NCBI GenBank assembly: GCA_031213475.1
Contig: JARUPZ010000012.1
Location: forward strand, 6,484,878-6,548,877
Length of the DNA: 64,000 nt
Direction: 5' to 3'
DNA from: Nereocystis luetkeana
Lineage: Eukaryota > Sar > Phaeophyceae > Laminariales > Laminariaceae
Part shown: one piece after another, positions 3,111 through 63,088 of the stretch
How the letters are laid out: each line of letters begins with the position of its first letter
How positions within the stretch are numbered: position 1 is the first letter of the stretch
Notes under the pieces: generated by a model
Database searches by the model: none
The model's input: only the letters and a program-made list of their open reading frames with translations
Told to the model about the DNA's origin: nothing
Position numbers and translations under genes: made by a program

Positions 3111-4833
3111 GTGGGTGGTTTTCATTTTGTTTTGTCCCCTCTTCTTGATCACCTTTAGCGCCACGCCGGGTTTGCTTTCGCCAACGCATGTACGGGAGGG
3201 GGGGGGAGGGGGGGGGTGGCGTCAGCGCGCACCGCACCGTTCTAGTCGGTCATTACCGTCGCGATTGTACTTGTTGCGGTTTCTATACTGCAGGAGTTAA
3301 GCTGCCGCCACCGCGCTGTGCTGCTGATGATGACGTGCGAAAGAAAGGCGCGAGCGGGGTGGTTTTGGTCGATCCCCAACCCCCTCTATCCTATCCTCCC
3401 TTCCCGCCCGCCATAGTCCCAACTAGCCTCGAGTCTGAGGTATCTGGCTTAAACAGTCTCCAAATAACGATATAAGTGTAGCAGGGACAGTTTCATCGTT
3501 CAATTTTTATTTTTTGTTTTTCTTATTCCCTTCTTTCCTTCTTTCCTTCTTTCTTTTTTTTCGGACGGCGCAACACCCCCCCCCCCCTCCCGCTTTCGCG
3601 TGGTTGGGTGGCGCGTTCTAATAGTCGGCGTAGACTTTTTTTTTGTTTCGTAGCTGTGTTGCATGGGAAAACTTACTACCGCACCGAGGCACCGACCGGG
3701 TAAAAGCGGTGGCGTTGGTCGTCGAGATGGAAAAAGGGGATCCTCTCGCTCCCGAGCTTGCTTGTGGGAAAATAAATCTCAGATGGGGCGTCTCCTCTTC
3801 TACCGTTTGGTCCGCGAAGTATCCCGTGTTGAAATACGAATAATTTCAGCCGATATGTGTTGTGTGTTTTTTTTCATGTTTTGTTTCTGAGATATGGAAG
3901 CTTCTACTCGTAACCGTTCCCTAGATCTCTCGAGGGTCGCCGGTGGCGGTCTCGTAACTAGAGGAGGCGTTATGTTGTGCACGAACAGTTTAGGGGGGGG
4001 GGGGGGGGGCAGGGGGACCAGAGCAAGCGAAGAACGGAGTTTTATTTTTTTTTACTATTAATAGCTGCGTTTCAGTGTTGGGGTCACTCGTATGGTCCGG
4101 TATGATAGAAAACGTCCGGCACAGCTGTTGCTGCTGCTGCTGCTGCTGCGATATTGGACCGCTTGGCCTCTCCTCCTGCTTGAGTTTTTTTTTTTGTTCG
4201 GGCTGTCCGATATTTTATCGTGTAGCCCCGATGAACTCATAACGAAATAATTCATAATTTACTGGTTTGAAAAAAAAATATGTCGTCGTTGCTCGCCTTC
4301 ATCGCCGAGTCCCGTACGGGCGCCACGCGTAAGAGGTATAATACGGTACTGGGGAGCGTTGTTTTTGTGTGCGGGTTTTATGTGCGTTGCACTGGCCTTG
4401 GTATTGCGCGCTATCCTCTTTTTGTTGCATTTCCATGTTTTGTTTCCCCCAGACAATGTCGGGATGAGAGTTCTTCAGCTCAACAGACAAGCACCGCGCG
4501 CGCGCGCCGGGGGGGGGGGGAGACGCCCCCCCCCCCCCCCCTCCTTCCCCCTTCCCCCCTACATCCACTCCCGTTTTGTTGCCCATTAGTGCACGTAAAT
4601 ACTACAGACTGCTACTCCTGCTGCTGGAGTATACCAGGTATTAGTTACGCGCACCAAGACAGGAGGAGAGGAGTAGGCAGTGGCCACCCGCAAGAGGATA
4701 TGAGTATGAAGGAGGCATGGGTGGGGGAGGGGGAGGAGGAGGGGGGGGGGGGGGGGGGGGGGGCAGTATTGACCGAAAGCAGGACGGGGGGGGGGTGGGG
4801 GGGGGGTATAGGACAGCAGTGCTGATCCTTGAC
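3111..4833. other. Intergenic, homopolymer-rich, no gene recognised
   Basis: The stretch contains G or C runs at about 3190-3225, 3578-3590, 3990-4010, 4510-4545 and 4740-4763, a short (CTG)n at about 4125-4148, and one TACCAGGTA motif at 4632. The open frames crossing it are dominated by Pro or Gly from the homopolymers and are not supported as genes. Confidence 0.5.
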
Positions 4834-4923
4834 CCTTTTAGGGCAAAGCTGCAGTACCGTTTTAGGGACAAACCAGTCAAATTCTAAGTTATTTGTCCCC
4901 TAGACGGGGCTTGTAGTCCTACA
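4834..4923. mobile_element. MITE family A, copy 2 (degenerate)
   Basis: The ends ACCCTTTTAGG and TAGTCCTACAG flank diverged arms (GCAGTACCGTTTTAGGGACA and TTTGTCCCCTAGACGGGGC). Confidence 0.65.
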
Positions 4924-5913
4924 GCCTACGGTTGCTGGTTGACACTTGACACGGGGCGAGCGGGGGCTAAAACTACTTTATACACGTATATATACCTACT
5001 ACTTCGTACACTATTTAAGAGTGATTGCCGTTTACACTGTTGTCTAAAGCAAACGCTATTCTACTCTCTTTTTTCTGTTCGTCTCTAGACGGTGCTGGCA
5101 CCGGCTGTGCAGACCCACAGACATATATACTACGAGTACATACCAGGTACGGTATTCTTTTACAGAGTGCGGGATGACGGGGAATGAGGGTAGAGTTGTC
5201 GCTTTTTGAAGCCCGAAGCTGGCTGGGTGTGTGTTTGTGTGCGCAAAGCCGGCATTTTTTTGCATGTTTTTGCGTAATACGGCGGTGGTGGTGGTGCATA
5301 CATAAGCCGTCGTGCGTGTACGAGTATAGACGTTCAACGGGTGTACTGGCTGGTGGTACGAGATCTTCGTAGAAACAGATACGTAAAAAGGTGCAAAAAA
5401 ACGAACGGAATTAATCCCATGGTATGATACAAGCTCTACCACCATGAATTCATACTTCGGAAGAACAAGAGGTGGAGGACGAAGTAAGAACAAACGGAGC
5501 ATACAAACTCCGTCCTCGTGAATGAATGAATCCATGCACAAGAAGAGTACTGACGGGTTGTGTTATTTTTAGACGTTGAGTTACTAAGTACTACTGACTG
5601 TTGTAGCAACGTGCCGGTGGCAAAGAAAAATGGTACGCTGGTACGGTGTCGTGGATACATACTATATGGCTAAATTTGCATGGTGGTAATGGTATGTTTC
5701 AGTATGTAAGGTCCGTAAGGGTCGAGTACGTCGTACGAATATCAACTGTAACGACTTTATAGATCGACCATGGAAAGTGTTCGAAAATATAATCCACGCG
5801 GACGAACAGACAAGACAGACAGATTTGCAATTACCGCAGCTGAGACTCAGTTTTACAAACTGAGAATTCTGAGTAATTTAGTCCCTCAAACGATACTGCA
5901 GTGAAACCTATAC

Positions 5914-5952
<39 letters not shown>

Positions 5953-6195
5953 AACAACGTGCAAAAGACTACCAGGTATTAATAAGAGCAAACGAAAGCG
6001 ATCGGCCCCTCCTTGCAGAGTCCATGCCTTGTCCTCGTGATGAACGGATTATCAGCGTAAAACTTTTACCGACCGGTATAATCGACGTTGGAACTAAAGC
6101 AACCGACGCGCTCGTGGCATATATATATATATATATACCTGGTACGTTCGTATTTCAAGAAGAAGAGCACATGGCAGCGACCAGGGGGGGAGCCA
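4924..6195. other. Intergenic, no gene recognised
   Basis: The stretch holds a (GTT)n microsatellite at about 5911-5953, two TACCAGGTA motifs (5141, 5969), and one TACCTGGTA immediately after a (TA)n run at about 6119-6142. No open frame looks coding. Confidence 0.5.
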
Positions 6196-6378
6196 ACCAC
6201 CGGTGGTCCCTTCTACAATTCCGGTATGTGCCGTGTGCCAGCAGGGCAATGCACCGGCGTTCCAGCGAGCACCGACATTATTCCGCACACTGTCGCACTG
6301 GCCAATCCCATGTACAGGCAGGTGTCAAGCGGTATCCCTGGCATTATACGTAGAGGGAACCCTACTACTGCTGTATAA
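6196..6378. mobile_element. TIR element family C, copy 1
   Basis: The left part resembles GTGGTCCCTTCTACAATTCC. The right part contains GGCATTATACGTAGAGGGAA and ends CTACTACTGCTGTA. The copy shares the internal phrases TTCCGCACACTG and CCAATCCCAT with copies at 10660-10894, 40846-41022, 45525-45692 and 56990-57185. It is non-coding. Confidence 0.6.
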
Positions 6379-6380
6379 TT

Positions 6381-6824: not shown

Positions 6825-9800
6825 CTGCGAGACAGATTAGGAGAAAGCCACCGGTGCCAAGAGGAGGGGGAGGAGAGTGGACGACGGACGGACGTGGGTG
6901 AAAAAACACACACGTAAATATACGTTACGAGCGAATGCGATGTTTCTACTATTTATTGACGGCGCCAAAAGAGTAGTGGCCCCTTCCGAGTTGCCTGATG
7001 CGTCTTTATTTACACACGCACGCACGCACGCAAGTTGATGAATATGCTGTGGACATAATTACCCTGCGACGCAGGACGCAGCAACAAGCACAACAAGTTG
7101 TCGAACGCAACTATTACGGGGGACCATAGTTAACAGGACCTATGGTATTAAAAAAACTACCAGGTACATGTTTAGCCATTTTTACCAACAATATTTGGTC
7201 CTGTTAACTATGCCCCCCCGTACTATTAATAAGTATCTGCAAAGGCCAAGCCAATTATGTAATGCCAACTACTACTGTAGATGATGACTACTACGGGGGG
7301 CCGTAGTAATCAGGACCCATCATGCATACAAAAACCTATATGTTCCAGTATTTTTACTAAGCACATTTGGTCCTGATTACTACGTCCCCTCGAAATAGTC
7401 GCCGACTTTTAGCCGGCCAACTCGCAGCCCTAGTGGTTGCAATAATGCTTGAGAGAGAGACAAACCAAAAACAGACAGGTCTTCTGTAGTGATCATATAT
7501 ACCATTCGCCATCTAACAAATGTGAAGCGCTCATTCCAATCGTATCACCCACACACATTTACCGAGGGTGACCAGAATGCAATCACTTCAGAGAAACGAC
7601 ATTCTATCGTACGTACTAATGGCAGCTTCGGTGGATAGTAGAGAGAGAACAAGCTGGAACGCGCCTGTTACATACGCGTTCCTGTGCGCGGTCTCGCAGT
7701 TGATCAAGGAGATAGATATATTTCGTAGAGTGAAAAAAAAAAAAAACGCCTACGTACGTACGCTCGTACAGAGGCAAAAACAATCGACCTCATCGTGGTC
7801 GGCGGGTATACAGGTGAAACTAAACAAGAAGAGTACCTGGTACTTACTTGGTATTGTACCACGGGAGAGAGAAAACACTCTTCCTTCTTCTGAAAAACCA
7901 AACACAATTATTTATAACAGAAAAAAAGAGGTATTAGAGAGAGAGAGAAAGAGAGAGCAATAGCTGAAACGCGCCCACCATCTTGAACGATCCTGCGCGA
8001 TGGCGCTACATGACCAAGGAGAGCTGGGGTAAACGTGCGCCTACTCTCGTACCGAGGCGAAAACGACCCCCACCGTCGTGGTCGACGGGTATGGAGGGGC
8101 CCTCCAGGGTGTCAAGAGAACGAGAGGCCGAAGAAAAATAAATGCGAACTGATCACGAGGGGCAAATAGAAAGCTTGAAGAACAGAACGGAAAAACGAAG
8201 TACAAAAAACGTATCGCGAGACAACTCGCAGGGGGAGAGGGAGAGAAAGAAAGCTGGAACGCGCCTGCTGTGGTACGCCGTCGTGCGCGGTCGCGCCGCG
8301 TGACCCTAGGGAGAGCTGGGCTGAAAAAAAGCGCCTGCAGTGCTCGTAGGGAGAGAGGCCCCAACTTTTATCGTGCGGTCGACGGGGATGGAAGCGCACT
8401 CCAACACGTTCTAAGAGGGAGGCTAAAACAACTATCACGGGGGACCATAGTAAATAGGACCTACGGTATACACGAAACCCTATATATTTAACTATTTTTA
8501 CTAACAGGATTTGGTCCTGTTTACTATGGTCCCATGTCGTGCCAGGTACTATACCACCCGGGACATCTCTCAAAGAACAAACAAAAAGCTCGAGTACTAT
8601 TTATTGCGCGACAGAGGGAGAGCAAGCTGGAATACGTAGGCTATATATCCTGCGCGGTTCTGTGCGGTCCTGCGCGGGTCGCTCCGCCGGAGCTCTACGA
8701 AGGAGAGCTGTGGATGGACCTGAAAAAACGCCTACGTGCTCGTATAGAGGCAAAAAAATAACCCCCCACCTCATCGTGGTCGACGGGGACGGAGGCGTGT
8801 TTCAAGATGTCGTACAGGGAGCACGCGGCCACGAGACCCTCTTCTGAGCAGCAGAACTCCGCAAAGCTCTCGCGAAGGGTTCCCTGGGCCGAAAAGGTGG
8901 GTTCGTTTGGGTTGGAGGAGGTGGCGTTTTTTTTCGGGGGGGGGGGGTGGGGGGGGGAGGGGAGGGGGGGGCGCACAAGGTACTAGGAGGGGCCTGAATT
9001 CACTGTGAAACGTATATGAGCATTAAAACGCCGCTACGTTCGCGCAAAGGGTTCCCTGTACTGGAGGGGACGCATTCGGTCGATTTGGTTTAGGGGAGGA
9101 GGCTGTTTTTTTTTTTGGGGGGGGGGGGGGGAGGGGGGGGCGCAGAAGTTTCGGTGCGGCACGAAAGCGAAACAAAGAACGTGCATGCGGCGTCACAAGG
9201 TTTGTAGTACTAATTTGGATTTACGTTTACGGCACACAGGTTTCGCGGGGAAAAGAAGAGCGAGGGCAGCAGCACGAGTAGGCGAAAACTGCGAAGGCAC
9301 GCAAAAGCAAACAGCCTTCGTGCACGCATAGGGGTTCCCCTTTTTGTTTTGGTTTTCCCTCGTTTGGTTTCCTTCTGCTTTCGGGGAATGTTTATGAGCT
9401 ACCAACGCTGTAGGTACCGCAGTTCGATAGGCTATTGCAGCCCAATAGGCTACTGTGGTCCAATAGTCTACCGCAGCCTAGTCCAATAGATTCCCCTTGG
9501 TTTTCTTCCCCTTTTCGGGGAATTGTTTTATGAGTGATCAACGTCGAGGCTCATGCTGCACATAGTCGTATGGATGGCAAACGAAGTAGGAATCTGAACG
9601 ATTGACAGTAGCTGTAGCAGTAACAGTAGCATTAACAACACCCTCTGTACGCGGCTACAAGGCAGCAGACACACCAACTCTTCGTCGGTGAAGATCCTGC
9701 CGGGCTGCTGGTGCCTTGCAGCCCTGTCGTTCCTTATGACCGCGATGGCCTCGTCCAAAACTGCGCCGGAGCGCTTGAGCGTCAGCGCGGGCAAGGGGAA

Positions 9801-12800
9801 ACTGCCGTCCGGCACGCTAGGGTCGACCAATTCCTGCACCATTCATACCGTCAGCGAAGAAGGAAGGGTCGGAAGGGACTACTACTGATAACACGTGTGG
9901 TAGCGGACACCTGACGACCAAAACGGATGACGCGACCGCCGTCACCTAGTAGGAGCGACCGCGGCGATGACCGGTACACCCGTCACTCCCCACCTTTGAT
10001 CAAACGCGGCCGCCGTCACTTGATAGGAGTGACAGCGGTCATGACCGGTACACCCGTCACCCTCCGCCTTCGCTCAAACGCGGCCGCCGTCACTTGATAA
10101 GAGTGACCGCGGTCATGACCGGTGCACCCGTCACTCCTTGCCTTTGTTAAAAAAAAAAGGTCTCCCTACAACTTCAAGCGGCCGATGAAAATCGGCTGCT
10201 ATAAATCGCTGGATAATACGCGACACCGCTCTTATTGTGGACCCATGCTACGAACGAGAGGCAGCACTTTTTGCGCCAAAAACACTACTGACTGACGGGA
10301 GCCCCTTAAGGTCACTGAGGAACTAACCAGTAAGTCGCGCCTTACGGCCGGAATACCTTCAAATTTGGCTTATTGCGCCCACCGTAGACCACCATGGGAT
10401 TTTGGTTGACCGTCGGGCTGGGTTGCGCTTTCATTTTTCTGCCAAGGTTCGCTCTTGACTCACTAATAGTACAGGAATTGGTACCCCGAAGGCAAAAAAA
10501 TTGGTACACCTCTACGGTACCCATCAGTAAGCGTAAGTCTCTGGACGGAAATGCAAGGACCACTACTGTAGGCGTTAATATCAATATACGGACGGTCCTC
10601 TTACGTTTCCGCCTAGAGTGGCTTCAGTCCTCTTACGTTTCCGCCTAGAGTGGCTTCATACAGCAGTAGTGGTCTACTCTCTATAGTGCTGGTATATATG
10701 CGCCAGCCGGCCAACATAACCGGCACTATAAAAAGCGGCAACCAACCGGCACTAATCCCTCCGCACACTGCGTACCACACTGGTTGATCAATCCCATCTG
10801 TCTGTGCCACAGCGACTTCGCAGGCGTTTTTTTTCAGCGGATAGCCGGCACTATCCAGCCGGAACTATAGAGGGACCACTACTACTGCTGTACTGCATTG
10901 CGCGTGTCGGCTCCATATCTCACCGGGGGCATGTCTCGGTACTCGCCGCACTTGGGCGTCCCTCCCACCCACTCCCCGTCGTACGTCTTGCGCGTCGACA
11001 TGTACAAAAACCGACCTTGTGCAGAACAGAAAGAACAAGAGAAATCATGTCGTGATTATGCTATGGGGGGGAGGGGGGCATACTCATCGGTTGCTTGCCT
11101 TAGTCATTTGACCATTGACCACGCATCCCATTTCGAGACGGAGCAGCTATGGGGGGGGGGGGGGAGTTGAAGGCGTTATTGGTGTCTCATTGTGGTTGTT
11201 GTTGCCCTGTGCATGGCAGAAAATAAAAATGTAGTTCGTACATACCTGGTATCATGTTCTTACGTCATGGGTGGGGGAGTCGAACGCGATTTTCGTATCT
11301 TATGTGGGTGTTGTCGCCGCCCAGTGCCCTAGTATACGCTTCACATATGAGGCAGATCATATAGATCCTCGTTTCACACATCGGAATCAGACAGATCAGA
11401 TCCCCGAATCGTGATAGAAATATTTCGAGGCAAATGGACCCCTGATATGTATGATCTGTTTGATCTGTATGATATGTATGATATGTATGATATGTATGAT
11501 ATGTATGATATGTATGATGTGCATGATCTGTACGTATGATCTGTATGATCTGTATGATCTGTATGAACAGTATGATTTGCATGATCTGCATGATCTACTT
11601 ACTGCTGTAGAACGTGTTTGCCGAGTGGGATCTATTCTCCACATGGGTTCTCGCTGCGCACGTTGTTTGCCGGGTGTGACCAGGGTATGATACGGCGCTT
11701 GCGCATCATCTCATAACGGGCAACACACACGTCATCTAGGTTATCTAGATCGTGATCTGTCTGTCCAACGAGCGAAGATTTCCTTGCCATCCTCACCGGG
11801 ACCCTCCTTTTTGTCGAGCAGCCAGTAACCCTCGAAAACGTCGCCCCCAGGAAGCCGCAGCGACCCTGCCCCGCAGCGCTGACCATCCACCCATGCTCCT
11901 TCGTACACCTGAAAATAGGATTTTTTTACCCTGGTTACTCAATCCATTTCCGGTTTGTTTGCCTTCCGACAACGTGCGCACATGAGCTTCAACGTCTGAT
12001 CTCTCATGAGCATTCCCCGAAAGAAAAAGAAAACCTATTGGATCAAGCTACAACAGTAGACCTACTAGACTGCAGTAGACTACCGGGCTACAGTAGCCTA
12101 TTGAACTACAGCGCCTTCGACGTTCAACCGCTGGTAAGCATTCCCCCGAAATAAGTCTACTTTTAATTAATCGCCGCGCTTGCTCCTTTCTTATCCGTAC
12201 GTCGTGTTAAAGGAGAGATGCGCAGCAGGAGTTTCAACGCTAATCGCCCGCAAAGCGTTCTCCAGAAAGAAAAAGGAAAACCAAAGAGGAACCGAGAGAG
12301 CAAACCTCGGCACATTCGTCCATTGCTCCACTATGCACCTGCTTCCGGCAAAACAGCATAATAACATCACCCCCCCCCTCCCGGATTCGCACTTGGGGGG
12401 AGGGAGGGGGGTGATATGGTATACATGTGGAGTCCATATCATAAGGGTATCCTTGCCTCGCCATTTTCGAAGGCCATGAGGCCTTGCCCGTTCCGTCGAT
12501 TGGCCTCCCACCCCCCCTCGTATCGGCTCCCGTTGGCATAAAAGAACACGCCCAGTCCTTCCCGTTTGTCATCTGACAATGAAAGAAAACAAAGTGAGCC
12601 AATGTTTTCAGCTGCGTATTTTTTTTAGCCAATCAGAGGCCGCGGCCTGCTCCAATCCGACAAAGCAGCGCGAAAGGTTTAAGGATCGTGACTTTTTTGG
12701 GGGGGGGGTGGCGGCCTTGAGAATGTTGCCCGAAGCTATTCCATGAGGTGGGGTGAGGTGAGGCGGGGCGGGCTGGGCTGGGGTGGGGTGGGGTGAGGCG

Positions 12801-15800
12801 GGGCTGGCTGGGCTGAGGTGGGGTGAGGTGAGGTGTGGTGAGGTGGGGTAGGGTGGGGTGGAGTAGGGTAGCGTGGGGTGGGGTGGGGTGGGATGGGATG
12901 GGGCGGGGTGGGGCGGGGTGGGATAGAGTGGGGTCCGGTGGAGTGAGGTGGGGTGGGGTGGGGTGGGGTGGGGTGGGGTGGGGTGGGGTGGGGTGAGGTG
13001 GAGTGGGGTCGGGTGCTGTGAGGTGGGGTGTGATGGGGTGGGAAAACAAATCGCTTCACCTTTCCAGTCTCCTGCATACTGTTTTCGGAGCTTTCCCGCC
13101 TCCTTGACCCAGTACGTCCCTTTGCCGTGCCTCCTGCCTCGTTCCCATTCCTGCAGAAAACAACACACCAGGTACTTCGTATATAGGTAAATCACGTAAA
13201 ATCGTGTTGACATGAAACTCATTTTAAATGGTTTCGTGTTGGGTTTTGTTTTTTCTGTTGGATACGAGGGATCGAAAGTTGAGCTGGGCATTGTCGGAGA
13301 CCGAATACAAGGAATGATAGTAATATTATACCCAAGCGCCAGAGTTCCGGCGTATAGTGGGCAACAGCACTTGCGAAATTGGGAAGTAGGGAAAAAAGTG
13401 GGTCGGTTTTTGGACGAAGCAAACAAAAAATCCTTTTTGTTTATCCTGAATTAAGGTTAGAACTTTTTGTGTATCCTGAATTAAGGTTAGGACACAATCT
13501 ACCCGACTTAATGATGGGAGGAGGGCCCGCACTATCATCTCCTTACGCAGTGTCGCGTACAGTATGCCGGACTGAATACTATTGAAAGTACCAGGTATTA
13601 AGCGTTAATCACTACCATCATACCCTTTTGTCATCTGGCAATGTGAAGCCACAGCCAGCGTAAAGCTTAAACGTCGATCACTCATAACCACCTACAGAAA
13701 GAAGAAGATGCCACAGGGGGGGTGCACACAAAGCAGCAAGGACGCCAATTGTAGGATGCAAGTCTACTATGATAGCTCCTTCCGTTACGTATCTACTTCG
13801 GGCTCAACGTCAACCTAGGATCTCCACATGCTGTTTGCTCTTGCTGCGATCTCTTCTCACTGGCGAGCGTTTGCACGAAGTAAATGAACTCCTCCAATCG
13901 AAACTCCTCGCCAAACGTACAAAACTCTTTGGTGTTTTTCTTCGTCTTTCTACCGTGCTGCTGTAGCTGCTTACTGGGGATACCTGGAAAGCGTGTGCAT
14001 TGCCTTCACGTAAAACCGATATTTACACTCTACGACGTCATCGGCTGCACCCTACATACTACTTAGGGTGGCGAACATGATGGTCGAGTGTTCATTTCAG
14101 AAATATAACACCAATCCCCGGCGTAAAGTGCACCGGCAGAGTTTCTTCGGGTCGCTCGCCGGAAACAAAACATACCACGAGAGACATAATGATTGCAGTG
14201 CTCGTGGCTAGCTCACCCCCTCGTACTTGTTGCCGTTGACCCAAGACCTGCTGCCGTATCCGTGCTTCATATTTTCGCGCCATTCTCCCTGATACCGCCC
14301 CCCCGTCTTATACTGAGGCTGAGAGGTGCTGTGGTAGAAGCGCATGTCCGCCTGGGGGGGAACGGGGTCGACGTCGAATTTTAGACAGACTGCGAGGCAT
14401 ACATACACCACCACTTGCGTCGGTATGAGCGACTCTGTCTGATACTTAGTACCCCCTCGTAACTGCCACAAACTGGTGTGATATGGCGGTCGAAGGGAGG
14501 AAGAATGCGATTCTTAGGTCTTACGGCGAGGAGAGATTACCTGTAACCAGTTATTCCATACCAGGTACACTTTTTTTTCTGGCTGTCGCCGGCCCTCGAT
14601 TTGCTGTGGCTGACCCTCTGTTTTGGCCGGCGTGGAATCTAGGTGCCTGGTGGGCCCTGCCGACCGCTAAATATAAACCCAGGTCCAGTTTGGAGGGCTC
14701 AGGTCCGGGTGCTATCGGGGCGCCAAGTGGGAAGGATGCAAATATGTGCGTTTGTGCGTGCGTGTGTTGACCAACGAAACATCCCGAAACATCACTCGTT
14801 GACCAATCGAAGGGTTTTGTCGAACAAGTGGCGAACTCTCGTACTGCGTGCGGGGGTAAGGGGCTTCGTTTCCTGCCCCTTTTGAGTCCTTTCTGTGGCG
14901 TCAATTTGCGGGTAGCTACGTATAGGCACAGGTTGAATGGTTCTGTTTCAACCCCAAGGACTTCGTCCCCGAAGTATGATTGCAATTCTCTCTCTCTTTG
15001 GCACTACTTCGTGTACTGATATTGTTTAGGTGTTCGACACGGGGTGGTTCTGCTGTCCAGTCCATCAGATGTTGCGTAAATGTCCGCCAACAGGGGTGTT
15101 ATATTTTGCCTTCCGCATGGGCCTGCGCCGCTATCAACAGCAGCACACTTGAGTGGAACTCTAACGTTCACGCCCCCCCCCCCCCCCACCCCCCCCCCAC
15201 CCCCCCCCTCCCCGCGCGCTTCATGATGTGCGTATCTTCGCGAGGGCAAGGTCGCCCCACATAAATAAAGAAAGAGATATCGCATGCACTTTGAGATTGT
15301 TCGGTGCTAAGGAAAGCGAGCGCCACATCATCCACTCGCTGACGACAACCGCTGGAAGCGAACCAGCGACACCGCTGTCGTGAGGTGAAAGACGGTGATC
15401 ATATCACATTATAAGTCGACGATACGAAAAAGTCCCGGTACATTGTTTCCATCATGCGAGTGGGACGAATCCAAGGTATAGTTCCTTTACGTACACGAAG
15501 CTTACAGGTATCGGGTACCCGGGTACCAGGTGCACTTTCACGGGGGGGCATAGTAACTACCTGGTAGGGCATACGGTTCACACAACAACCTACTATATAT
15601 TTACCAATGTTTACTCACAAAAATTGGTCCTACTTACTATTATTGTCCCCCGTAATATTATTATTCCTCTTGCCATCAGGCAATGTGCAGCATGATCTTC
15701 AACATGGAGCACTCATAACTTTCCCGAAAGAAGAAAACCTCGGAAACAAAAGGAAACCCATGCACCAAGTCTACCTTCCGTCCCCCGTAATATTAATATT

Positions 15801-29002: not shown

Positions 29003-29003
29003 T

Positions 29004-37499: not shown

Positions 37500-37575
37500 C
37501 AAGTACCAGGTATGCAATACTATCTACCTGGTATAAAAAATATACCAGGTATATGTCGTACCAGGTATATGGTAC
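37500..37575. repeat. Cluster of four TACCWGGTA motifs
   Basis: Exact 9-mers lie at about 37502, 37525, 37543 and 37558, separated by AT-rich spacers of 6-14 bp. Confidence 0.9.
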
Positions 37576-44500: not shown

Positions 44501-46194
44501 GGCTGCTGCTACCGCAGCTGTGCGAGACGCCCCCCCCCACGCAAACGATATTTAAAAACAACTGAGGCACAGGGGGGACAGGCGAGAAGGGAAAAGGGCA
44601 GTTACTCAAAGGGGAGGTGAATCCAATTGCTCTGCGTCGTGTAAAGCCGGGTGGGCTCAAGCTGTTACATAACTGGTACCTGGTATGAAGGAAGCTGTAC
44701 GGGAACATTTGAAAATGTACTTCATGAGGAGAGCCTCAAAACCAGAAGCGCTGACATCGCGCAGCACCGAAAAGAAAAGCCACCCACCTTCATGATGAGA
44801 ATATCCAGCCAGAATCGCTTTCCGACTTACATCGCGCACACAACCCCCCCTCTCCTCTCCCCTCCCCTCTCCAAAGAAGCTACTTCGAAGTATTGAATTG
44901 ACCGACTAGACTACGAGTACAGCAACAAACAGTAGACGACAGCGTCCAAGCGCAAACCTCGATTTTATAGGTGGCGAAGTTCGGCAACGTCGTGTATATA
45001 CTGTTCGAGAGAGAGACGAGCGCGAAAATATTTGTTCAGGGTGAGCACACGAGCGACGACAGTACCAGCAAGCCCCCGACGAGTAGACACACAGTAAGCC
45101 CCCGGTGCGTGTGGCCGATTCTGCACTCGTCACGTTTTCGTGCAGATGCTAAACCCCCCCCCTACGTATAACCTACCAGGTACGAAGCAATGCCGGGCTG
45201 CTATGTGCAGCTGCATACTGCACAAAACTTTGTGCAGGACGTGTGTCGTCAATTTCAACCTTGCACGTGGACCCAGACCAACCCAACCCCAGGCCTGACC
45301 CTAACCCTAACCTTGACCTGAACCCCTATCGTTTGGGGGGCTCGAGGTCGGCAGAGGCAGTCGAGTCACGCGGCTCCGCCGCGTGTTTTGGTGGCGTTTT
45401 TCCAACAAAGACGCCGGGCGGCCGAAAGACCCGCCTTGACCAATAAGACCCGCATGTTTTGTGCAGGATGCAGCTGTACATAAGGTCGAGTCCGCTGCTA
45501 TGGCATACCATTGTGTCCCTAAATATTAGGACCGTTTGCCGGTGTCGGCTATAGTACCGGCGAAATCGCTTGGCACCTGTATAGATTGGATTAACCAGTG
45601 TGGCTGTGTGCGGAATAATGCTGGCCCTCGCTGTAATGCCGGTGTGGTGCCTTGGCACCTGGCACATGCTGGCATTATGGAGGGACCACTACTGCCATAG
45701 CCCCTTTGTTTCGTACACAGCATGGTGTCTACCATTTCATCGAATACCGGGTAAGGGTCAGCTCTACTTGCGTAGTTTCGCCTCTCGGGTCCCCTTATGA
45801 CCATTTTAGGATTGCAGTCCCGTTTTTTCGGCACAGACCTCTCAATTTCCCAAGCCTTTAATCCCCGTGTTGTCCCCAAAACCGGACTGAGGTCCTAACA
45901 AAGGGTAGTCGACGTCGTGCTGCGAGTGGTACAGCAGTATATGGGTACAAAGCGGCAGCACCGGTAGTACGAGTTATTTAATAGCAGGCAGTTTGAATTT
46001 TCGCTGAGAGGCAAGGTGCAGCTACTGCAGCTGTTGATGATAGTGCCGCTCGCTGCATGCCACCGCCGTGTTGGTGAAGAACGTTCTCGTTTTTGTGCGC
46101 TTTTTTTGGGGGGGAGATTTTTTCTGCTTCGTTTATCGCGAGAATTTGTACAAGTTTTTTTGCGGCGTTCCCTGTGTGCTGTTGTTGTTGTTGC

Positions 46195-52200: not shown

Positions 52201-55200
52201 CGTCTAAGGGTCGTCGAGGCCGACGTAGCCTGGCCTGGCGAAGGCCCGACCCTTTCCCCCCCGGGTGTCCCCCATCTCCGGTTGATTTCCTCGCGGTTCC
52301 TAGTTGTTTATGGCGGCTGTGTGTCTCGTCTGTCGTTGAGGTGGCGTGCTCTACATGTGTGTACATCGCGTTGGACTAGCCCGCTGAAAACGCCGATTCG
52401 CTCTCTCCTCGGCGCGTTTTTGCGCGCTGTGCGGTGGCTTTTACTGCTGTGCTGTGACACACTACAGCTGTGCTGTGCTGTACCTTGCCCCTCCCTGGTG
52501 AGTGTCAAATTACTTGAGGCAAGCGAGAGATGAGTACCCCCCCCCCCCCTCGCGATTGTAGACGCGTGAATGGTGAGCATTTATATATGTATATACAGAG
52601 TTGTGAAATGTTGATCTCTGCCCTCCCCCCCCCCCCCCGCTCTCCCCCCCCCCCCCTCTTACCCCCCTACTCGTATTTCTCGGCGTCCTCTATGAATCGG
52701 CCCTGCCGTCGTCTTCGCCTCCCTCTTTCCAGGCGAGCATCAATTGGCGCTTCGTGGCGAGGACCGGTCTGAGAACAGGACCGCACGGCTCTTTCCTCCG
52801 CGTCAGGTGAGAGCCGTTTTTATCGGTTTCTGCTGTTTTTTGTCGGTTTGTGCTGTTTTTTCGTCTGCTCCTGTTCCCGTCGGCGCTTGCTGTTCTCGTC
52901 GGTTCTTTGCTGCTCTCGTCGGTTCCTGGTGTTTCCGTCGGTGCCTGCTGTTCTCGTCGGTTGTTGCTGTTTTCGTCGGTTTTTGCTGTTTTCGTCGACT
53001 CCTGCTGCTTTCGTTGGTTCTTGCTGTTTTTGTCGGTTCTTTGCTGATTTCGTTGACTCCTGCTGTTTTCGTCGGTAGAGAACCGATAGTCGCCTCGGAG
53101 ACCAGGCCGAACCACCATCGTGCGTCTTGACCCCCGTGGTAGGGTCGATAGGACCCTACTGCAGGAGCGATCAAAATGTTTCTACGGTAGAAGTAGTTTG
53201 TCCCGATTTTATGGGTTCAGGGGTTCAGGTTTTGTTTTTGGTGATGGTAGTGTTGGTGGTGTTCGTTGTGTTGCTGGCGGTGCTGGTGTTGGGTGTGGTT
53301 TTTTGGTGCGGGTGTTGCTGTTGCTGTTGCTGTTGGTGGTGATGTTGACAGCGGTGTAGGCGATTGATGTTGGTGGCGGGTGTAGGCGGTTGGTGTTGGT
53401 GTCGGTGCTGGTGTTGTGGGTGGTGGTGTTGTTGATGGTGGTGGTGGTTGGTGTTCGATGGGGGTGATATTTTTGTTAGGTACTGGTAGAGGCATCTCGT
53501 ACTGGTAGTCATTACGTAATGCCGATGAACGGTGATACGTCAAAACCATGACGTGCAACGTGTTCTCTCGTGGTTCATGAAAGCACACGCGAAACCTGCG
53601 ACCGCAGCTCTCGTCCACAAAGCCGGCCGCTGAGGATAAAATATACCGGCATATTGCCCGGATATTGAGTTACAAAAACGACTATTATAAGATGTGAGAT
53701 CGAGGATTTTTTTGTCGAAAAATCATCTTTGCAAGCTGCGTGGGGATACTTTGATCGCGCGAATCACGGGTTTTGAGGGAAACGAAATCTGACAGCGAAT
53801 CTGACGGCGGTGGAACTAAAATATATACATAACCTTTGTTTCGTGGATTGAGCTGGAATGTTGAAATACAAAAAAGGAGCGAAGTGACGGTCTGCGGCTG
53901 GTGTGTCGCGCTGCTTGCAAAGTGGCGTGTGTGCTTGGGGCCGACCCAAGCTTAGTGTACAGCGGCAAGATCAGCAGTGGTGTTCATTGTTTTGGGCCCC
54001 GGGAACGTATACGGTTAGAAAACTCAACAGCTGCCGAGTTTCGTGCAGATCTTTTTTAACCCGAAAAAATCGATGCCACAGCAGTGCGCAGCATCTCGTA
54101 TAGTAGTGGAGTTGTTAAGTACCCCTCTGTCCTTAAATTCAACGGCGTGTGTTGATTAAATACTACTGTAGAATACGAAGTGTCCTTCTACAGAAGGGAC
54201 AGAATGGTGGGTCATTCCAAGGCAACGATGTACATAAACTGGTATGCCGGTATGTACATTTTCCCGCACAAAAGTTGCAATTTTCCGCGCTGTTTTTTTT
54301 TTTCTTCTTCTTCTTCTTCCGGCAAGTATTATTGCACACTCTTTTCTGTACAAAAACATCTCCCTGTGTTTCACTTTTGGCAACATGCTCCCTATTATAC
54401 AGCCCAGCAAGCTAGCGAGCAGCCCAGGGCTGGCTGCCTTGCGCTTGATGTGGCGGTAGTGGCGCTGGCCATTGTGTGCACGAGGAGTGGTCAGTCACGT
54501 TCGGTTTGGACAGCTATCGCGCGGGAACACACGGCAGAACTCAGAACCAAACACAGCAGAGGAATAACTTTTTTTTGGGTACATCGTGAGTTCCGAAATC
54601 ATTACCCTCCTGTGATGATGGTTCCCTCGGGTCACTCAGGCCGGGGAAATGAGAAAATGATATCCGTAGTTTGGACTCTTGCTATAAAGGAACATCAAAC
54701 GGAGCGTGTGTTCCCGGCCAGGCCAGAGTGGTAAGTAAGTCCCAATACTACATTTTTATTTTTTTTACTTTTTTATCCTCCGGCGGATTGGTAAAGATGA
54801 AAAGCTTAAGCTCACCACACGTTCCACGTTCCAAATTCGTGTCGTGTGTCGATTTAACGCGTAGTTCCCGTTGTAACACCAGAACAAACTGCTGTTACCC
54901 CTGGGGCTTAGGCACGTTGACCCGACCTGACCCCCGAGAGGAGCAGGTGGGCGGTGGAGATAGCCACCCGGGGGGCTGGCTACTGCAGTTAATCGGGGGG
55001 CCATAGCAATCAGGACTCATCACACACACATACGGTACCTGGTAACCTACAACCTGTATATTCCAGTATTTTTACTATTACGGGGGACCATAGTTAATAG
55101 GACCTATGGTATATAGATAAAAAGCTACCTGGTACCAGGTATACATTTAACCATTTTTACCAACAATATTTGGTCCTATTAACTATAGCCCCCCGTAATA

Positions 55201-57936
55201 AGCGCGTTTGGTCCTGATTCCTACTCTATGTTCTCCCGTAATTGGGCGCGTACGTACCCGGCTGGTCCTCGGAACTACCACTGTAGCACGTACAGTATAA
55301 TATTAATACAGTATCAATAGTAGGGTGTTCACCTTCGCCGTATGATACGTAGCGTTATTTTTCCCCCGCCCTCCCGCTCGCCCACGAACCCGTTCCTTCC
55401 TTCCTCCCTTTCTTTGTACTCTCGACGTACCTGGTACGTACGTGTTTCGATGCTGCGTCTCACCGACCCGACCCATACCCGACCCATACCCGACCCGTAC
55501 CCGATCCGACCCAACCCGACCCGACCCGACTTGATCCGACCCTCGGCTGTACCCGCGATACGCCATCATCCATCACACAACGCAATACGCCCCCTCGCCG
55601 ATGAACGATGAATAGCATCGGAGGGCGAGAGGTGCCGACCTACATCGTCTCGCGTCACCCATCCAACTGGGGGTTCCTGCTGGAGAGCTGCTGGACGCTG
55701 TACACGAGCTGGGAGATGCCCCCACGAGACGGCCCCGACTGCGACCGGTCGCTGTTGGACGACAGGCTGACGGTTACCATGGACGACCAGTGGGAGGAGG
55801 TGGGCATTTTTTTATTTTTTTATTTATTTTTAGTGAGGGTGTATGTGCGTGTGTGTCCGTTGTGGGCGTTCGACGTGAATCGTTGGACGCGCTGGAAGGG
55901 AGGGAGGAGGTGCGCATGTTTTGAGGAGATGTATGTATCCGTTGGAAGTTTGGGCGTGGACGTGATGAAAAAAGGGGAGGAGGGAGGTGCGCGTTGTTGT
56001 GAGGTTTAGATCCGTTGGACGTTGAACGTGATGCGGCGTTGAACGGTGAGAGGTTTTTTTTTGTAGATATGGCACCAGGTCGTATATGTTTTGCGCACGG
56101 GTAAAAGTGCTCAGGTGTGTCGTGCGTCTACTGTCGACTCGGTTGTAGAAACACCAGTTGGACGTTGGGCGTGATGAGTTGTGTTTTGTGTGTTAACATT
56201 AGACCGTTCTTTCTACCCGTCGACATCCGGCACAACCGGTGTCCGTGCCGATAGGCGTTGAATGTTACGATGCGACACGCTCTATAAACCATGCGGGACT
56301 TGAGAGGGAAAACTTGTTTCATGCACGAAGTAAAGTATATATTTATACCTGGTGTATAATAGCGAGGGTTGCTCCGACCAAGAGATCTCAAAAACTCACG
56401 GGTCGGGTTGAGTCAGGTCAGGAGGTATTCGAAATCTCATGGGTCAGGTCGAGTAGGGTCGGGTCGGGTTAGGTGAGACCCCCATCCGACCCGACCCCCT
56501 CGTTTTTTTTCCCCCCACCCGTGAGCAGCTACACTATCAGCTGTGATGAGATCGAGGATATCGTCGAAAGTCTTCTTGGCGAGCTGCCTGTGACAACTCG
56601 TTAGGCTTGGGTCGCTTTTGTGTTGAACGTACGGTGTTTCAGGTGACATCACAAAGGATGTACTCGTATGCCGCATCATGAAGGATGTACTCGTATGCCA
56701 GAGTGGGCCAGAGGAAGTACAATGAGCGTTTGCACATTACCAGGTAGTATATATGAAGACCAAACTTTCCTCGTGTTTCCGTCCAGAGCGGCATACACCC
56801 CTCAGCGAGGGGAAGCAAAATCTGACAGCGTATACATCTATTTATGCTGCAAACGTATAGTACGACGATTATTACTGCATCGGGCACTCGGAGCAGCCGG
56901 GGCTGCTGGCTGCCAGGCGGGGGGGGGGGTCATGAAGGGTGATGTCTCAAGCCCGGCGTAAGGAGCTATAGACAGAGCAAGGCAAGGGTGTCTCGATAGT
57001 GCCGGTATGCGCCAGCCAGCAAGGCCGGCACTGTATGAATAGCGCAGCCGGCGCTGCCCGCACACCACCACCACCACCACCACCACCAACACTGGCGGTG
57101 GTTTCCATCTGTGTGCCAAGCGATTCAACAGGCACTACTTCTGTGAGCGGGAAACCAGCACTATGGAGAGGCCACTACTGCTGTACGGCAGTGCGCGCAG
57201 GCAGCACATCTGGCACTCTCATGTCTAGGCGCCGGATTTAACCGCGCCGCAAAAAAAATAAATGGCGCTCATATGCAACCACTCTGAGCCTGAAATCAAG
57301 GACCGCCTGGTCTTCGTGTTAATGCTGTAGTTTCCCAACCGGCCTTATAATCCGGCCCAGAGACGTGCCAGGGGTATGCGTGCCAGGGGTATGCGACACG
57401 CGCGCAGGCAGGCAGAATGGATGACTCGATACCCGTACCATGTGTGTGTATATACTGCTGCAAGCTCTGCTTCTGCTCTACTGAACGGTTGGGCCGTTGG
57501 ATAGAGAATCGTGCTCGCTGCTGTTTTTTTTTTTTTGTCGCTTGACTTGTCATCAAGTCACGAAAGGGTTCAAGAGGAGATATTTTTTTCGACTTTTTTC
57601 TCCACCGTACTCCCGTTTTTTGAGACGAAACACTTGGAATTGGACCAGGAAAAAAGTCGGGAGTTGTAAGAAGTGAGTAGGGATGTTCGTTTGAGGGATC
57701 GCCTGGGCGTCGGCACTCGACGGACAGACCCGCTCGACGCTTCTCGGAGAGTCTAGGATCTCGTGAAATCTCTCTATTTTCTTGCGCCGGGTCGTTCGTT
57801 TGACTGATTCGGCTCCCTCCTCCCCCCCATCTTCCCCCTCTCGCTCGCTCGCTTGCTTGCTGGTTCGCTTTTTTGTTGTCACGTCACCCTCTTCTTTTCT
57901 CTTGAGAAACACACACAAACTAAACCCGAACCGAAC

Positions 57937-58631: not shown

Positions 58632-61210
58632 CACGGGCCATGGCGTGGTCGGCGCGGCGCGGCGCGAGAGGCGTATCGAGGTCTGACAAGATGAAGCGAT
58701 CGCACGGGGGAGGGGGGGGGGGAGAGGAGGGGAGGGGGGGGGAGGGGGGAAGAAAAGGAGGGTAGGCTTTAATTAGTTGCTTTCTTTTGTCGTTCGCCAT
58801 GGTTGGAGGGGGAGAGAGAGAGCACGGGGGTGCTGGGGCTAGCCACTCGTGAGTCTCGGAAAGGGTTGGGGCTGGTGCAAGGGGAGAGAGGCCATAGGCC
58901 AGAAGAAGGAGGGGCGATTGCTTGCCGGTGCGAGCTGCGAGCTGTACATTTTTTTAGGAGGGGGCGCTGGGGGGCGAGCCGGCTTGCTGGCTGTCTGGTC
59001 GACCCTCGATTGTGTATGCGACGTCAATGCCGACGGAAGTTGTCGCCTGTGATGCCTGTACTTGACGCTCTTGCCTTTTGAATCCGCCGTGATGAAAGCC
59101 TGAGCGCATTTTGCCCCGCTTCTTTTGTACGGGCCGCTCCTTTCTGTGGAGTGGGGAAGTAGGGTAAAAGGGGGGGTGGGGAGGTAAAAAGAGGAGGAGA
59201 AAAGGGGGCATGGGGGGGGGGGGGCAGTCATATGCCAGAAACGCGACAAAAAATCTGTCGCCGCCGTAAGTGGCGTCGGGTAGGACACATAGAAGGGGTG
59301 AAAGACTTATACTTGGACGCCCTTGTCGGGTCGCTGTGCCAAGGGAGGGGGGGGGGGGGGGGGAGCTTGGGTGGCTCGCGAATTGGCGTGGCTCGATTCG
59401 AATTGCACGGCACTCGAAGGCGCGGCAACGTGCGCGGGAGGCGGAAAGGGATGAGACGGGCGACGGATCGGGGTGGTATGGGATGAGACGGGATGGGACG
59501 GGACGGGAAGTTGTTCCCAGATGCGGTGGTTGTCTTTCTTTTTATTTTCGTGGGTGGGTCCAGGGTAGTAAAAGAGATGCAGACCCGTTGTTTCTCCCTT
59601 TTTTGGCGCGTGGCTCTGTGGTGGTAGTACGTACTTGAAAAAAAATGGCGTGATCGTGATCGGTGCTTTTCCGTCAACGCTCAGAGAAAGGTGGGTGCTG
59701 CGTGTCCAAGCGTAAGTGTGACGAGACTGCAGCCCGCGCTTTAACTGTTTGTTTTGACTGTTTGGGGCTTTTCCTGTTTTTGTTGTTATGTCCCCCCCCC
59801 CCCCCCCCCGCCCTCCCCCCCTTTGTCGTTTTTTTTTTGGCGTGTGGACGATACCCGCTTTTTTCGGGGACGTCGTGTTTCGAGCCGCGTCAGGAACGAA
59901 CGAACGAGAGCTAAAAGAAACGAAATGTCGTGAATGTTTGGATGCGGAAAAGAGAGAGGGCTGCTCGTCGTTCCACGTTTCGTTAAGAAAAGAGCTGCTT
60001 GTTTTTGTTTGTTTTTGTGCGACTCCGCCGTTCAAAACACTCTTTTTTTTTTTTTTCTTCTTCTTGCTTTATGCAACTGTTTAACGCCAGTTCGTTGTAA
60101 GGAATTTCCTCATTATTTATTTTCAAAAGCCCGGGTGGAAATAAGATAAAACAGCTCGCGAAGAGAAAAAAGTGCCCCCGCCCCCCCCCCCCCCCCACCC
60201 CCCCCCCCCCCCCCCTCCCTCCCATTCCTCCCCCCTCCCCGAGTGTGTGCTGGACGTTTTGTTTTTTTTGTTTTTACTCGAAATCCCGTTTGAGAGGTGA
60301 TCACGACGTGCTTACCGTAATACGTATATATATATGATTCGTGCTGCTGGACGGTTTTGTTGTTTTGTTTTCCTCGGCACCCCGGCAGAAGAAGAGAGAT
60401 CTGATGATGATGATGATGAGGATCACGACGTATCGACCTTTGGGAGCTCCAAGACTTGGCATCCGCCGTTCTTCGTGCCTTGTCCCGTCCTATGAAATAT
60501 ATTTGTGTGCGTTTAATTCTTATTCCGCACGCTTGCTTTGTGATTTGACCGGGTAAGGGTGGGTGCGGTCGGACGGACATTTATGTTTCGCTTGTGTCGC
60601 GAGATGCTATATGTTATAGCGGCTCGACTTTCTTCTGCCAGGTACGTGGGTGCCGCCGGTTTTTTGTTGTGCGCTATACCAGGTACCTGGTATATATAAC
60701 AAAGCGGACCCGATGTATCCCGAGTATTTACCGTGCGATTCATTACATTTTGGTGCGCAGCTTCCTTCCTCTGGGCATCCTCGGCGCGCTCAGAGAGCGC
60801 TAACAACACCACAACTCGTTTTGTTACTGTTGTCGTACCATAGTAATACGATGAAATATACTCGTCGTACTATTTTTATAGTACGGTAGATACTAATTTG
60901 TGACTTGAGAGTTTTTTTTTGCTTGTTTTTGGTTTGCTGTATTTTGTTTTTTTTCGTCGGGCTCACTCTCCTCGCTGCTTTCTAATTGGCCGGCGTGGGC
61001 GGCCCATGTGGTTCCTTTTATTCGCGTTCGTGCGCAATCAACTGAGTAACTGCTGTGTGTGTCGTTGGCATTGACGAGCGCTCTGGTAAGCAGCCAAGCC
61101 ATCAGTGACGAGAAGCCTGACCTCTAAAAAAAAGAGCAAACAAAAAAACGAGAGCAGGGTTAGTTATTAGACTCTTGGTTATACCCGACTATTGATACAG
61201 CAGCCAGTTG
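58632..61210. other. 3' flank of the F-box gene; no further gene recognised
   Basis: Poly(G) and poly(C) blocks lie at 58700-58750, 59160-59225, 59350-59365, 59790-59820 and 60175-60240. A (GAT)n-like run lies at 60403-60422 and a TACCAGGTACCTGGTA doublet at 60678. A possible 3' UTR begins at 58632, but no poly(A) signal is assigned. Confidence 0.45.
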
Positions 61211-61504: not shown

Positions 61505-61629
61505 GACATAAGTGGTTCGTATTATGTTTCCAGCAGGTATCCATGTCGGATGCATGCCTACATATTTCAGTAGGAAACCCTCTATTAGTAGGATGCCCGA
61601 TGGCCCCGAGTCCCAGAGTTGCACGCCGG

Positions 61630-61912
61630 CCTCAAAAATTGGAACCGGGTACCCGACCGGGTGGCGGGGGGTTGAGCTGGAACCGCGTACCCCGGTCCCG
61701 GCAGACACGGGTACCCGGGTTACCATACGTACACTCTTTGCTCCCCTTTTAGCGTTTGAGCGGCCGCGGTTAGGGCGGACACGTGGACCCGGGTACCCGG
61801 GTTACCATACACTGCTGTATGTAGCTGTTTGCTCCCCTTTTTGCGTTTGAGCGGCAGCGTGGTATGGCGACGACACGGGTACCCGGACACCCAGGTTACC
61901 ATATACTTCTAC
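61630..61912. repeat. GGGTACCCGGGTTACCATA repeat block
   Basis: Two to three units of about 100-110 bp each carry ACACGGGTACCCGG, GGTTACCATAC, TTTGCTCCCCTTTT and GCGTTTGAGCGGC. A further TTTGCTCCCCTTTTAGC lies at 62063. GGGTACCC is a perfect palindrome and also occurs in the repeats at 140-325, 31205 and 62455-62728. Confidence 0.8.
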
Positions 61913-61924
61913 CACTACTATTAA

Positions 61925-62040
61925 TATTACGGGGGTTCATAGTTGATCGGACCAAATATAGTTCGTAGAAATGGTTAAATATACCAGGTATAGGTTTTTA
62001 TGTATACCACAGGTCCTATTATCTATGGTCCCCCGTAATA
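61925..62040. mobile_element. MITE family B, copy 9 (with TACCAGGTA insert)
   Basis: TTACGGGGGTTCATAG to CTATGGTCCCCCGTAA, with TA at both flanks. The centre TAAATATACCAGGTATAGGT aligns to TTAATATATAGGT in the copy at 33819, showing a clean 7-bp difference. Confidence 0.9.
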
Positions 62041-62454
62041 CTACTACTACTACTACTACAATATTTGCTCCCCTTTTAGCTTATTATGAGCGCGGCGGCG
62101 TGGACGGCATTAATTCGTTTCCCCCCTCTCCACGAATCATCATCATGCCAAAGAAGGAAGAAGGCAAGTTTAGGTACTCGTAGGGGGGTATTCTCCGTGG
62201 GATCGAGTAGAGAGGTGGGGAGTGAAGAGTTGAAATATAAGCAATCATGGAATGTAAATTTAATTTTCGTTCTATATACCCTCCTTATTTCGCTCGTCAA
62301 GTCATCAGGAAGATCGCAAAATACAAGAAGAACCCAGACCGATATCCGTCCAATCATCTCATCAAACATCCAATATCAACCCCGCGAGGAAACCATGGTG
62401 TTCGATCTCGTTGCCGCAATCACATCGGCCTCTCGGGTGTTGTGCGAACGCAGG
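62041..62454. other. Unassigned; weak coding-like segment
   Basis: A 123-residue frame (62086-62457) and overlapping frames have no recognised family or splice partners. Confidence 0.3.
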
Positions 62455-62728
62455 TAGGGGTATTATCTATTTTCGGTCTGTAGTCTGCAGGGGCGAGAGG
62501 CGACAGTCTATAGGGGCACAGCTGCTGAAGTTGTATGTATAAACCAACGTATACCCCCCCAGTCTTGGGGGCTCCGTATAAAACAATTGACGGGTATCCG
62601 GGTACCCGGGGTACAAATACCCGCGATTCCGTGAGTTGGACCGGGACGGTGTTCCGGTTCCGACGGTTCCAGGTACCCGCCACCGGGTACCCGCGGTTCT
62701 CAGTTAGACGGGGGGTGCAACTCTAGGA
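62455..62728 (+). repeat. Dispersed repeat, right copy (partner at 140-325)
   Basis: It has the same order of landmarks as 140-325, with TCGGTCTGTAGTCTGCAGGG, GAGGCGACAGTCTATAGGGG, AGACTG-type spacing and TTCTCAGTTAGACGGGGGGT. Extra GGGTACCC palindromes are inserted in the middle. Confidence 0.75.
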
Positions 62729-63088
62729 TGGCCCAGAGCAGGCTCAAATTCTCGTATGGGGCAGCGTGTGTTCCTACTGCTATTAGTCTACCTGGTACAA
62801 TATTTCGGTACCAGGGCTTACAGTATACGTATACAACAATGAGTTTCTTACGTTTGTTTGTCGTGCAAAAAAAAAGACGAGCACAAAATTGTCCAACCTC
62901 CAATTTGTTGAGCGGTGTCGCGTACTTGGACTCGACGTTTTTGCTCGAGGCAGACGATTGGCTGATTCTGCTGCTAGCTACTACCCTTTTCTTCCGCTCT
63001 CCCCCGTGTGAAGATATGGCCGAGGTAAGGGTAAGTGTAAGGGACGCAGGTGTATCTGGCAGCTGGGAAGCAGTGCTTCGTTTCTTCT

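Follow-up and report, generated by a model that had tools for sequence, protein, structure and literature searches.

The window analysed here is a 64,000-nucleotide stretch of Nereocystis luetkeana DNA (GenBank assembly GCA_031213475.1, contig JARUPZ010000012.1, positions 6,484,878 to 6,548,877), in which the palindromic word TACCWGGTA recurs to an extraordinary degree. An exact count gives 59 copies, 29 of TACCAGGTA (A at the centre) and 30 of TACCTGGTA (T at the centre), the first beginning at 4632 and the last at 62789. A preliminary description, which regarded the word as a transposon footprint, had arrived at about 59 by eye over the same span. Scanning the window for Rfam families and tRNA genes gave no hit, and Pfam searches with ten of its open reading frames returned a single weak MORN match and no transposase.

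Single copies with central A lie at 4632..4640, 5141..5149, 5970..5978, 13589..13597, 14559..14567, 19921..19929, 31625..31633, 35558..35566, 39267..39275, 39857..39865, 40831..40839, 45174..45182, 50535..50543 and 56738..56746. Their counterparts with central T are found at 6136..6144 (in a TATATA context), 7834..7842, 11243..11251, 30077..30085, 30385..30393, 34646..34654, 35451..35459, 36725..36733, 36866..36874, 39393..39401, 39593..39601, 40643..40651, 44677..44685, 55036..55044, 55428..55436 and 62789..62797. Further copies are clustered, at 37504-37567 (TACCAGGTA at 37504..37512, 37543..37551 and 37559..37567, TACCTGGTA at 37525..37533) and at 41615-41649 (TACCTGGTA at 41615..41623, 41626..41634 and 41641..41649). 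Neighbouring copies may also share a TA, as in the T-T doubles at 18901..18916, 30279..30294 and 51169..51184, the A-A double at 34923..34938, the A-A-A triple at 39769..39791 and the A-T double, with units in opposite orientation, at 60677..60692; the positions previously given for the tandems were correct within 3 bases. All of these come from exact counting, and no feature is assigned a strand.

The word is not confined to the window, since 182,395 copies are present genome-wide (465,085,209 bases in 1,987 contigs searched) vs 1,744 of the reversed word, which served as control. This excess of about 100-fold is far from expectation, and it answers the genome-wide frequency check that had been proposed. 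The earlier chance estimate of about 0.5 per 64 kb matches equal base frequencies, and scaling the 1,744 reversed words to 64 kb gives 0.24. Density is 922 per Mb in the window, 392 per Mb on average in the genome and 230 per Mb in pieces of a contig designated C1 (46 copies in 200 kb). A 264-kb sample, comprising the window and twenty 10-kb pieces of C1, contains 105 copies with 17 of the 21 pieces occupied. Of 104 arrays sampled, 93 consist of a single unit. In a 282-kb pool of 27 pieces, 116 exact words were seen vs 3.35 under a second-order Markov model, and among 30 TA words with this composition TACCWGGTA ranked first, with 116 copies vs 13 for the runner-up. TA-sharing pairs number 15,917 genome-wide vs 2 for the control. 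No published report of TACCWGGTA scars was found in the literature searched, the papers containing the word appearing unrelated from their titles or the opening of their abstracts.

Insertion at TA dinucleotides

TACCWGGTA arises as a discrete, TA-duplicating insertion of 7 bp. When repeat copies within the 282-kb pool are compared with each other, the change from TA to TACCWGGTA is an exact gain of 7 bp in which the TA is duplicated. Filtering on flanks left 22 insertions of 7 bp, of which seven duplicate TA; six of these seven carry CCWGG and the seventh CTTCG. For all six CCWGG sites (L012:7569, window:37224, window:61982, L017:4321, L014:1556 and L026:9639, the L-numbers denoting other pieces of the same genome) a related copy with a plain TA exists. 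In the window, self-comparison identified repeat copies with an empty TA in L007 for the footprint at 37225..37233, and in L008 and elsewhere for that at 61982..61990. The presence/absence variation that the preliminary description had hoped to find between strains is thus seen between repeat copies inside one genome. That the word might be an internal piece of a larger conserved repeat, recognized beforehand as damaging to a footprint, was rejected, as the contexts are unrelated and repeat copies differ by exactly the 7-bp unit. Precise excision to one TA, as in ciliates, was not found, both TAs and five extra bases staying in place.

In the unfiltered list of gaps, the 7-bp unit AAGTACC (12 events) was more frequent than CCAGGTA (10 events). 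It was discarded as a rival dispersed unit, all 12 events falling within one minisatellite array of L021. A long array at L021:157-9158 is built of tandem units of ∼87 bp (including CCCGTAGGATCATACCCTC) and makes up most of a 10-kb piece.

A natural trap for the insertions is provided by a TTACGGGGG-type miniature inverted-repeat transposable element (MITE) of ∼105 bp, which is flanked by TA, ends in TTACGGGGGACC and has the centre AAAACC-TA-TATATTTAACC. A gapped pattern accepting any 0-19 bases at this centre gave 8,553 matches genome-wide (4,273 + 4,280). Among 100 of these listed, 90 had no unit, eight bore one or more CCWGGTA units (one with two units, one at a second TA), one had a CCGGGTA unit and one a deletion. 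Insertion at TA with duplication of the TA, the behaviour looked for in a Tc1/mariner footprint, was therefore seen both in the six of seven insertions above and in 8 of 100 listed MITE centres. In all, 741 MITE-centre scars were counted, and 100 listed showed 58 with A and 42 with T at a single oriented site. Twenty fetched MITE copies, a biased set obtained with a motif-bearing query (66 matches, some being one place on both strands), had one, two or three units at the centre in both orientations. From the variable units and orientations, and from the 58 A and 42 T at one site, it is likely that independent arrivals at the MITE centre have been common, though some copies may have inherited a scar. 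Within the window, comparison with the MITE places footprints at the central TA of copies at 7158..7166, 29053..29061 and 61982..61990, an A-A double at 49966..49981 and an opposite T-A double at 55126..55141, the last two also at copy centres. Further TAs of the MITE have been hit as well, at 15558..15566 in the window (a diverged copy) and at L026:9639.

The flanks of the scars have a clear target preference. In 96 arrays lying outside MITEs (192 flanks), A/T occurs at −7 in 82%, A at −6 in 45% and A at −3 in 39%, vs 52%, 25% and 27%, respectively, for 15,259 TA sites taken as baseline; A or G occurs at −1 in 77% vs 62% for all TA. The preference is the same on either side of the scar, as a palindromic target requires, and is of the kind expected of a transposase choosing TA; we take it to resemble the Tc1 consensus CAYATATRTG. 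Opposite pairs among 59 tandem places listed are more often A-T (14) than T-A (5; p = 0.06), an excess in the direction predicted because A is favoured at −3. The words TACTCGTA, TACAGTA and TACAGCAGTA were rejected as scars of the same kind since, although enriched, they have A/T at −7 in only 54%, 56% and 51%, respectively. In the window and the 282-kb pool, the enriched TA words include TACTCGTA and TACAGCAGTA, which do not carry the target signature, and TACTATTAATA.

No sign of selective upkeep was seen. Alongside the 116 exact copies, the 282-kb pool holds 108 words with one mismatch vs 67.6 expected, distributed as 48 transitions (21.0 expected), 53 transversions (43.3) and seven changes of the centre (3.3). 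Rather than the maintenance against mutation that would mark a HIP1-like word, one-step decay products are in excess, with transitions making up two thirds of the surplus, from which it follows that the scars decay by point mutation; they appear comparable to sites diverged by a few per cent.

In the dispersed repeat AGTAC-TA-TGTAACTGCC, one TA holds three distinct contents: CTTCAAG in the window (∼23512-23528), CCTGG at L012:7569 and a TTACGG MITE of ∼100 bp at L003:826-929. Three different events have therefore hit the same TA. TA-CTTSAAG-TA, of which there are only two words in 282 kb, one per orientation, may have been left as a scar by a different element that cuts with a 7-nt stagger.

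Terminal bases and a proposed excision mechanism

The words that differ from TACCWGGTA by one additional base allow the terminus of the presumed element to be read. If ends starting with CCAGG were joined one base out and filled, CCAGGG (complement CCCTGG), CCATGG or CCCGGG would be predicted; ends starting with CCTGG would give CCTGGG, CCTAGG or CCCGGG. Between TAs in 264 kb, CCAGGG occurs six times, CCATGG three times and CCCGGG twice, while CCTGGG and CCTAGG are absent. In a 340-kb pool, which includes regions fetched for other reasons, the figures are nine, three and three, again with neither CCTGGG nor CCTAGG, and the mirror of CCAGGG is likewise absent vs the nine copies of CCAGGG itself. 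The window has this off-register (+1) footprint, TACCAGGGTA, at 18882..18891, 24870..24879 and 40460..40469. Genome-wide, TACCWGGGTA has 13,000 matches (6,505 + 6,495) vs 771 (380 + 391) for the reversed control. Among 100 matches listed, 93 have A and seven T, or 87:7 when one 528-bp tandem array, which holds seven of the A matches, is counted once. Similarly, CCAGGGTA occurs in 21 and CCTGGGTA in none of 100 listed sequences from a search that used tandems as a trap. The tallies of tandem pairs, MITE-centre counts, tandem-trap sequences, TACCWGGGTA matches and fill-in places were all made by eye from listings. At C1:1305185-1308353, seven TACCAGGGTA words stand at 528-base spacing, apparently a tandem array with one scar per unit.

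Fifty-nine of the 100 listed TACCWGGGTA sites were fetched (52 with A, some of them copies of the same repeats, and all seven with T). At 50 distinct A sites, 79 of 100 flanks have A/T at −7, 53 have A at −6 and 40 have A at −3; the T-centred sites, with 10, four and four of 14 flanks, are too few to judge. Because the target preference is shared, CCAGGG is given the same origin as CCWGG, and the two appear to be products of one process. Slippage of finished scars would yield A and T alike, unlike the bias seen in CCAGGG. The terminus is read as CCAGG because the +1 class is biased to A, and excision of a TA-targeting element starting with CCAGG appears to have produced overhangs of 5 nt. Self-complementary terminal bases with an ambiguous centre between two TAs are what the exact words have (29 A:30 T in the window, 58:42 at listed MITE centres), set beside 93:7 among the listed +1 words. 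The preliminary description had allowed CCAGG or CCTGG ends with a 5-base stagger. The A-biased CCAGGG class, which it did not predict, fits a 5-nt CCAGG overhang, favouring the first of these ends and the stagger and arguing against the second.

TACCWGGTA is thus very probably what repair leaves behind where a cut-and-paste DNA transposon with TA as its target and 5′-CCAGG at both ends has been excised, as its sequence features suggest; the footprint proposed earlier gains support from the 7-bp TA-duplicating insertions and the A-biased off-register class. In the proposed mechanism, the element would insert at TA and duplicate it, with both ends starting 5′-CCAGG. On excision the strands would be cut 5 nt apart, leaving on each donor end the TA and a CCAGG overhang. 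These overhangs, presumably left by the excised transposon and 3′ in polarity (the footprints being compatible with 3′ or 5′ alike), would anneal as C:G, C:G, an A:A mismatch, G:C and G:C. Sealing by end joining and resolution of the mismatch to A or T would produce TA-CCWGG-TA, with a net gain of 7 bp, and annealing one base out followed by gap filling would give CCAGGG or its complement. The TAs beside a scar would stay usable as targets, such that repeat visits could build TA-sharing tandems. Scars can outnumber elements because a cut-and-paste element leaves one scar per jump; if copies were rarely gained, a few hundred elements over millions of generations would suffice.

The parent element and rival explanations

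Several observations weigh against this reading, among them that the search for an element with TA-CCAGG...CCTGG-TA ends, which the preliminary description had called for, found none, so that the inference of a footprint rests on the scars. Of 333 TACCWGG words 232 continue with TA, and the remaining 101 are not above the control words (62-109 each); the sequence after TACCWGG revealed no terminus common to sites that differ upstream, and a search of the sample for terminal-repeat pairs flanking TACCWGG led to no parent. At the MITE centre, with its 741 scars, seven candidates from a right-end pattern included no intact insertion, being four MITE copies with a mutated TA, two mutated doubles and one CCCTGG off-register scar; none in 741 permits up to 0.4%, or ∼740 parents genome-wide. 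The tandem trap yielded 2,481 sequences, among 100 of which listed there was no recurrent terminus, the exception being a repeat, GGTACGAGAGGAGC, which follows at variable distance in nine. Long insertions between collinear matches showed TTACGG MITEs, and none with CCAGG ends was seen.

Transposase genes did not lead to the parent either. The pogo-type domain PF03184 has 45 matches in the genome, and none of the 12 loci examined has CCAGG ends, although four have clear terminal repeats. Two of these, L049:39-4312 and L050:816-5089, represent one element of 4,274 bp, flanked by TA, which has the ends TTACGGAGGCTCATAATTAG / TTACGGAGGCTCATAATTAGTAGG and contains a 437-aa frame that matches DDE_3 and, weakly, DDE_1; because its ends resemble those of the MITE, this element or a relative probably mobilizes the TTACGGGGG MITE. 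The others are TA-flanked elements of 2.6 kb at L053:2152-4763 (ends CAGTGGGGGGCC / CAGTGGGGGGCCC) and 2.0 kb at L059:509-2486 (ends CAGTACCGGCC / CAGTACCGGCCCG), the left end of the latter falling within a TA that belongs to a TACCAGGTA scar. Clear TA-bounded terminal repeats were not seen in L051, L052, L054, L055, L056, L058 and L060, and L057:1-6801 has a pogo-type transposase frame in inverted, near-identical copies. The mariner-type transposase domain PF01359 and PF13358 had no genome matches, but these blanks do not show absence because the same search missed the real DDE_3 member in L049, and PF01359 was also silent in control genomes. The parent is presumably of low copy number, lost or absent from the assembly.

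Some of the joining products run against the model or fall short of it. The product of full fill-in, TACCAGGCCTGGTA, is nearly absent, accounting for 10 of 27 places found via TACCWGGCCWGGTA (of the remainder, one is the mirror and 16 are the other two forms). It was rejected as evidence, as its count is about that from loss of the shared TA in tandems, and from its near absence joining would nearly always have been by annealed overhangs. The +2 product CCAGGGG was not found in 264 kb vs two copies of its mirror CCCCAGG; in 100 listed tandem-trap sequences, CCAGGGGTA was found four times and CCTGGGGTA not at all. The −1 product TACCAGTA, with 45 copies vs 10.8 expected, was rejected as support, since at the 24 sites left after duplicate contexts were dropped the target preference is absent (50%, 35% and 31%).

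The scarcity of parents would also be accounted for by developmentally programmed elimination, in which the ∼182,000 scars mark TA-bounded elements with CCAGG ends that a domesticated or resident transposase with a 5-nt stagger removes from the sequenced genome in each generation or life stage, a process like that of the internal eliminated sequences (IESs) of ciliates but imprecise, with a 5-bp scar after each joining. Many scars without parents, no intact element at a hotspot with 741 scars and no recurrent terminus among the listed tandem-trap sequences are what such a process would leave. However, parents that are low in copy number or extinct would account for the absence just as well, the MITE data leaving room for ∼740 of them, and point mutation erodes the scars as it does old neutral sites. 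In ciliates, moreover, IES excision is precise and leaves one TA with no extra bases. Elimination is considered improbable; if it were true, the assembled genome would be a processed version, and scarred removal on such a scale would be DNA elimination unlike that of ciliates.

Tandems with units in the same orientation outnumber opposite ones (40 vs 19 among the 59 places listed; p = 0.009), which runs counter to repeated excision and would suit replication slippage or micro-duplication, whereby the heptamer TACCAGG spreads from existing copies. Since the same orientation is in excess, some tandems may indeed be simple duplications. For the bulk of the copies slippage was rejected and is given very little credence: most sample arrays are single units, contexts in the window are varied, insertions have occurred at previously empty TAs, opposite tandems exist and the CCAGGG bias is left unexplained. 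A palindrome multiplied by selection, as a protein-binding site or a methylation motif, could be as abundant as TACCWGGTA; a known methylase site has CCWGG as its core, and HIP1 is an iterated word of cyanobacteria. This reading is largely contradicted by the way the word arrives, as an insertion of 7 bp that duplicates TA. The excess of one-step decay products also speaks against it, and a binding site would not predict the A-biased +1 class; it was rejected and is regarded as highly improbable. That the scars come from the TTACGGGGG MITE and its likely autonomous DDE_3-type relative, through an unusual cut position, has in its favour that this family is TA-flanked and numerous, as shown by the 8,553 centre matches and the 4,274-bp element. 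It is barely credible given that the family's ends are TTACGG and not the CCAGG of the scars, and its target logo (C at −1 in 52%, A at −2 in 61%, T at −3 in 52% and A at −8 in 48% of 82 flanks) differs, such that membership of the TTACGG family was rejected.

Relation to known systems

Excision scars are usually studied singly in assays, and here they are present at ∼392 per Mb, where their statistics reveal terminal bases, stagger, errors of joining register, mismatch resolution and target preference. If they are the excision sites that they appear to be, they form a countable record of jumps that separates jump rate from copy number, which is impossible from copy counts alone. They suggest that, merely by leaving its sites, a cut-and-paste element can remodel a genome in which it has few copies or none.

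Membership of the missing element in Tc1/mariner is likely by analogy. The Sleeping Beauty footprint TACWGTA is, like the word described here, a palindrome with one ambiguous centre. In the IESs of Paramecium, which have TA boundaries, derive from Tc1/mariner and are gone from the working genome, excision is precise to a single TA, unlike the scars with five extra bases described here. The transposases of Sleeping Beauty and mariner place their nicks three nucleotides within the element, and the footprints that remain have the sequence of the overhangs (PMC7827188); mariner-like breaks in vivo lie two or three nucleotides inside (PMC2642840). A stagger of 2-3 nt was not found here, since a 5-bp scar implies one of 5 nt. 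Sleeping Beauty resembles the present system in its TA target, TA duplication and footprint equal to the overhang (PMC7827188); the present system differs in its overhang of 5 nt vs 3 nt, its ∼182,000 scars and a parent that was not found. In Mos1, the 5′ terminal repeat starts TA-CCAGGTGTACAAGTAGG, with the same five bases CCAGG, although the other end is TA-TCAGG (PMC2642840) and the overhang is of three bases (PMC4505599). Excision sites of Stowaway MITEs and plant mariner-like (Osmar) elements share staggered internal cleavage, after which end joining retains terminal bases together with the target duplication (PMC4561436); the scars described there come from excision assays, whereas those described here are genome-wide and the element is missing. 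The best label for the scars is Tc1/mariner-like excision footprints, enormous in number and unusual in their 5-nt stagger; if the stagger is confirmed, it would indicate a group of transposases that cut in an unusual way.

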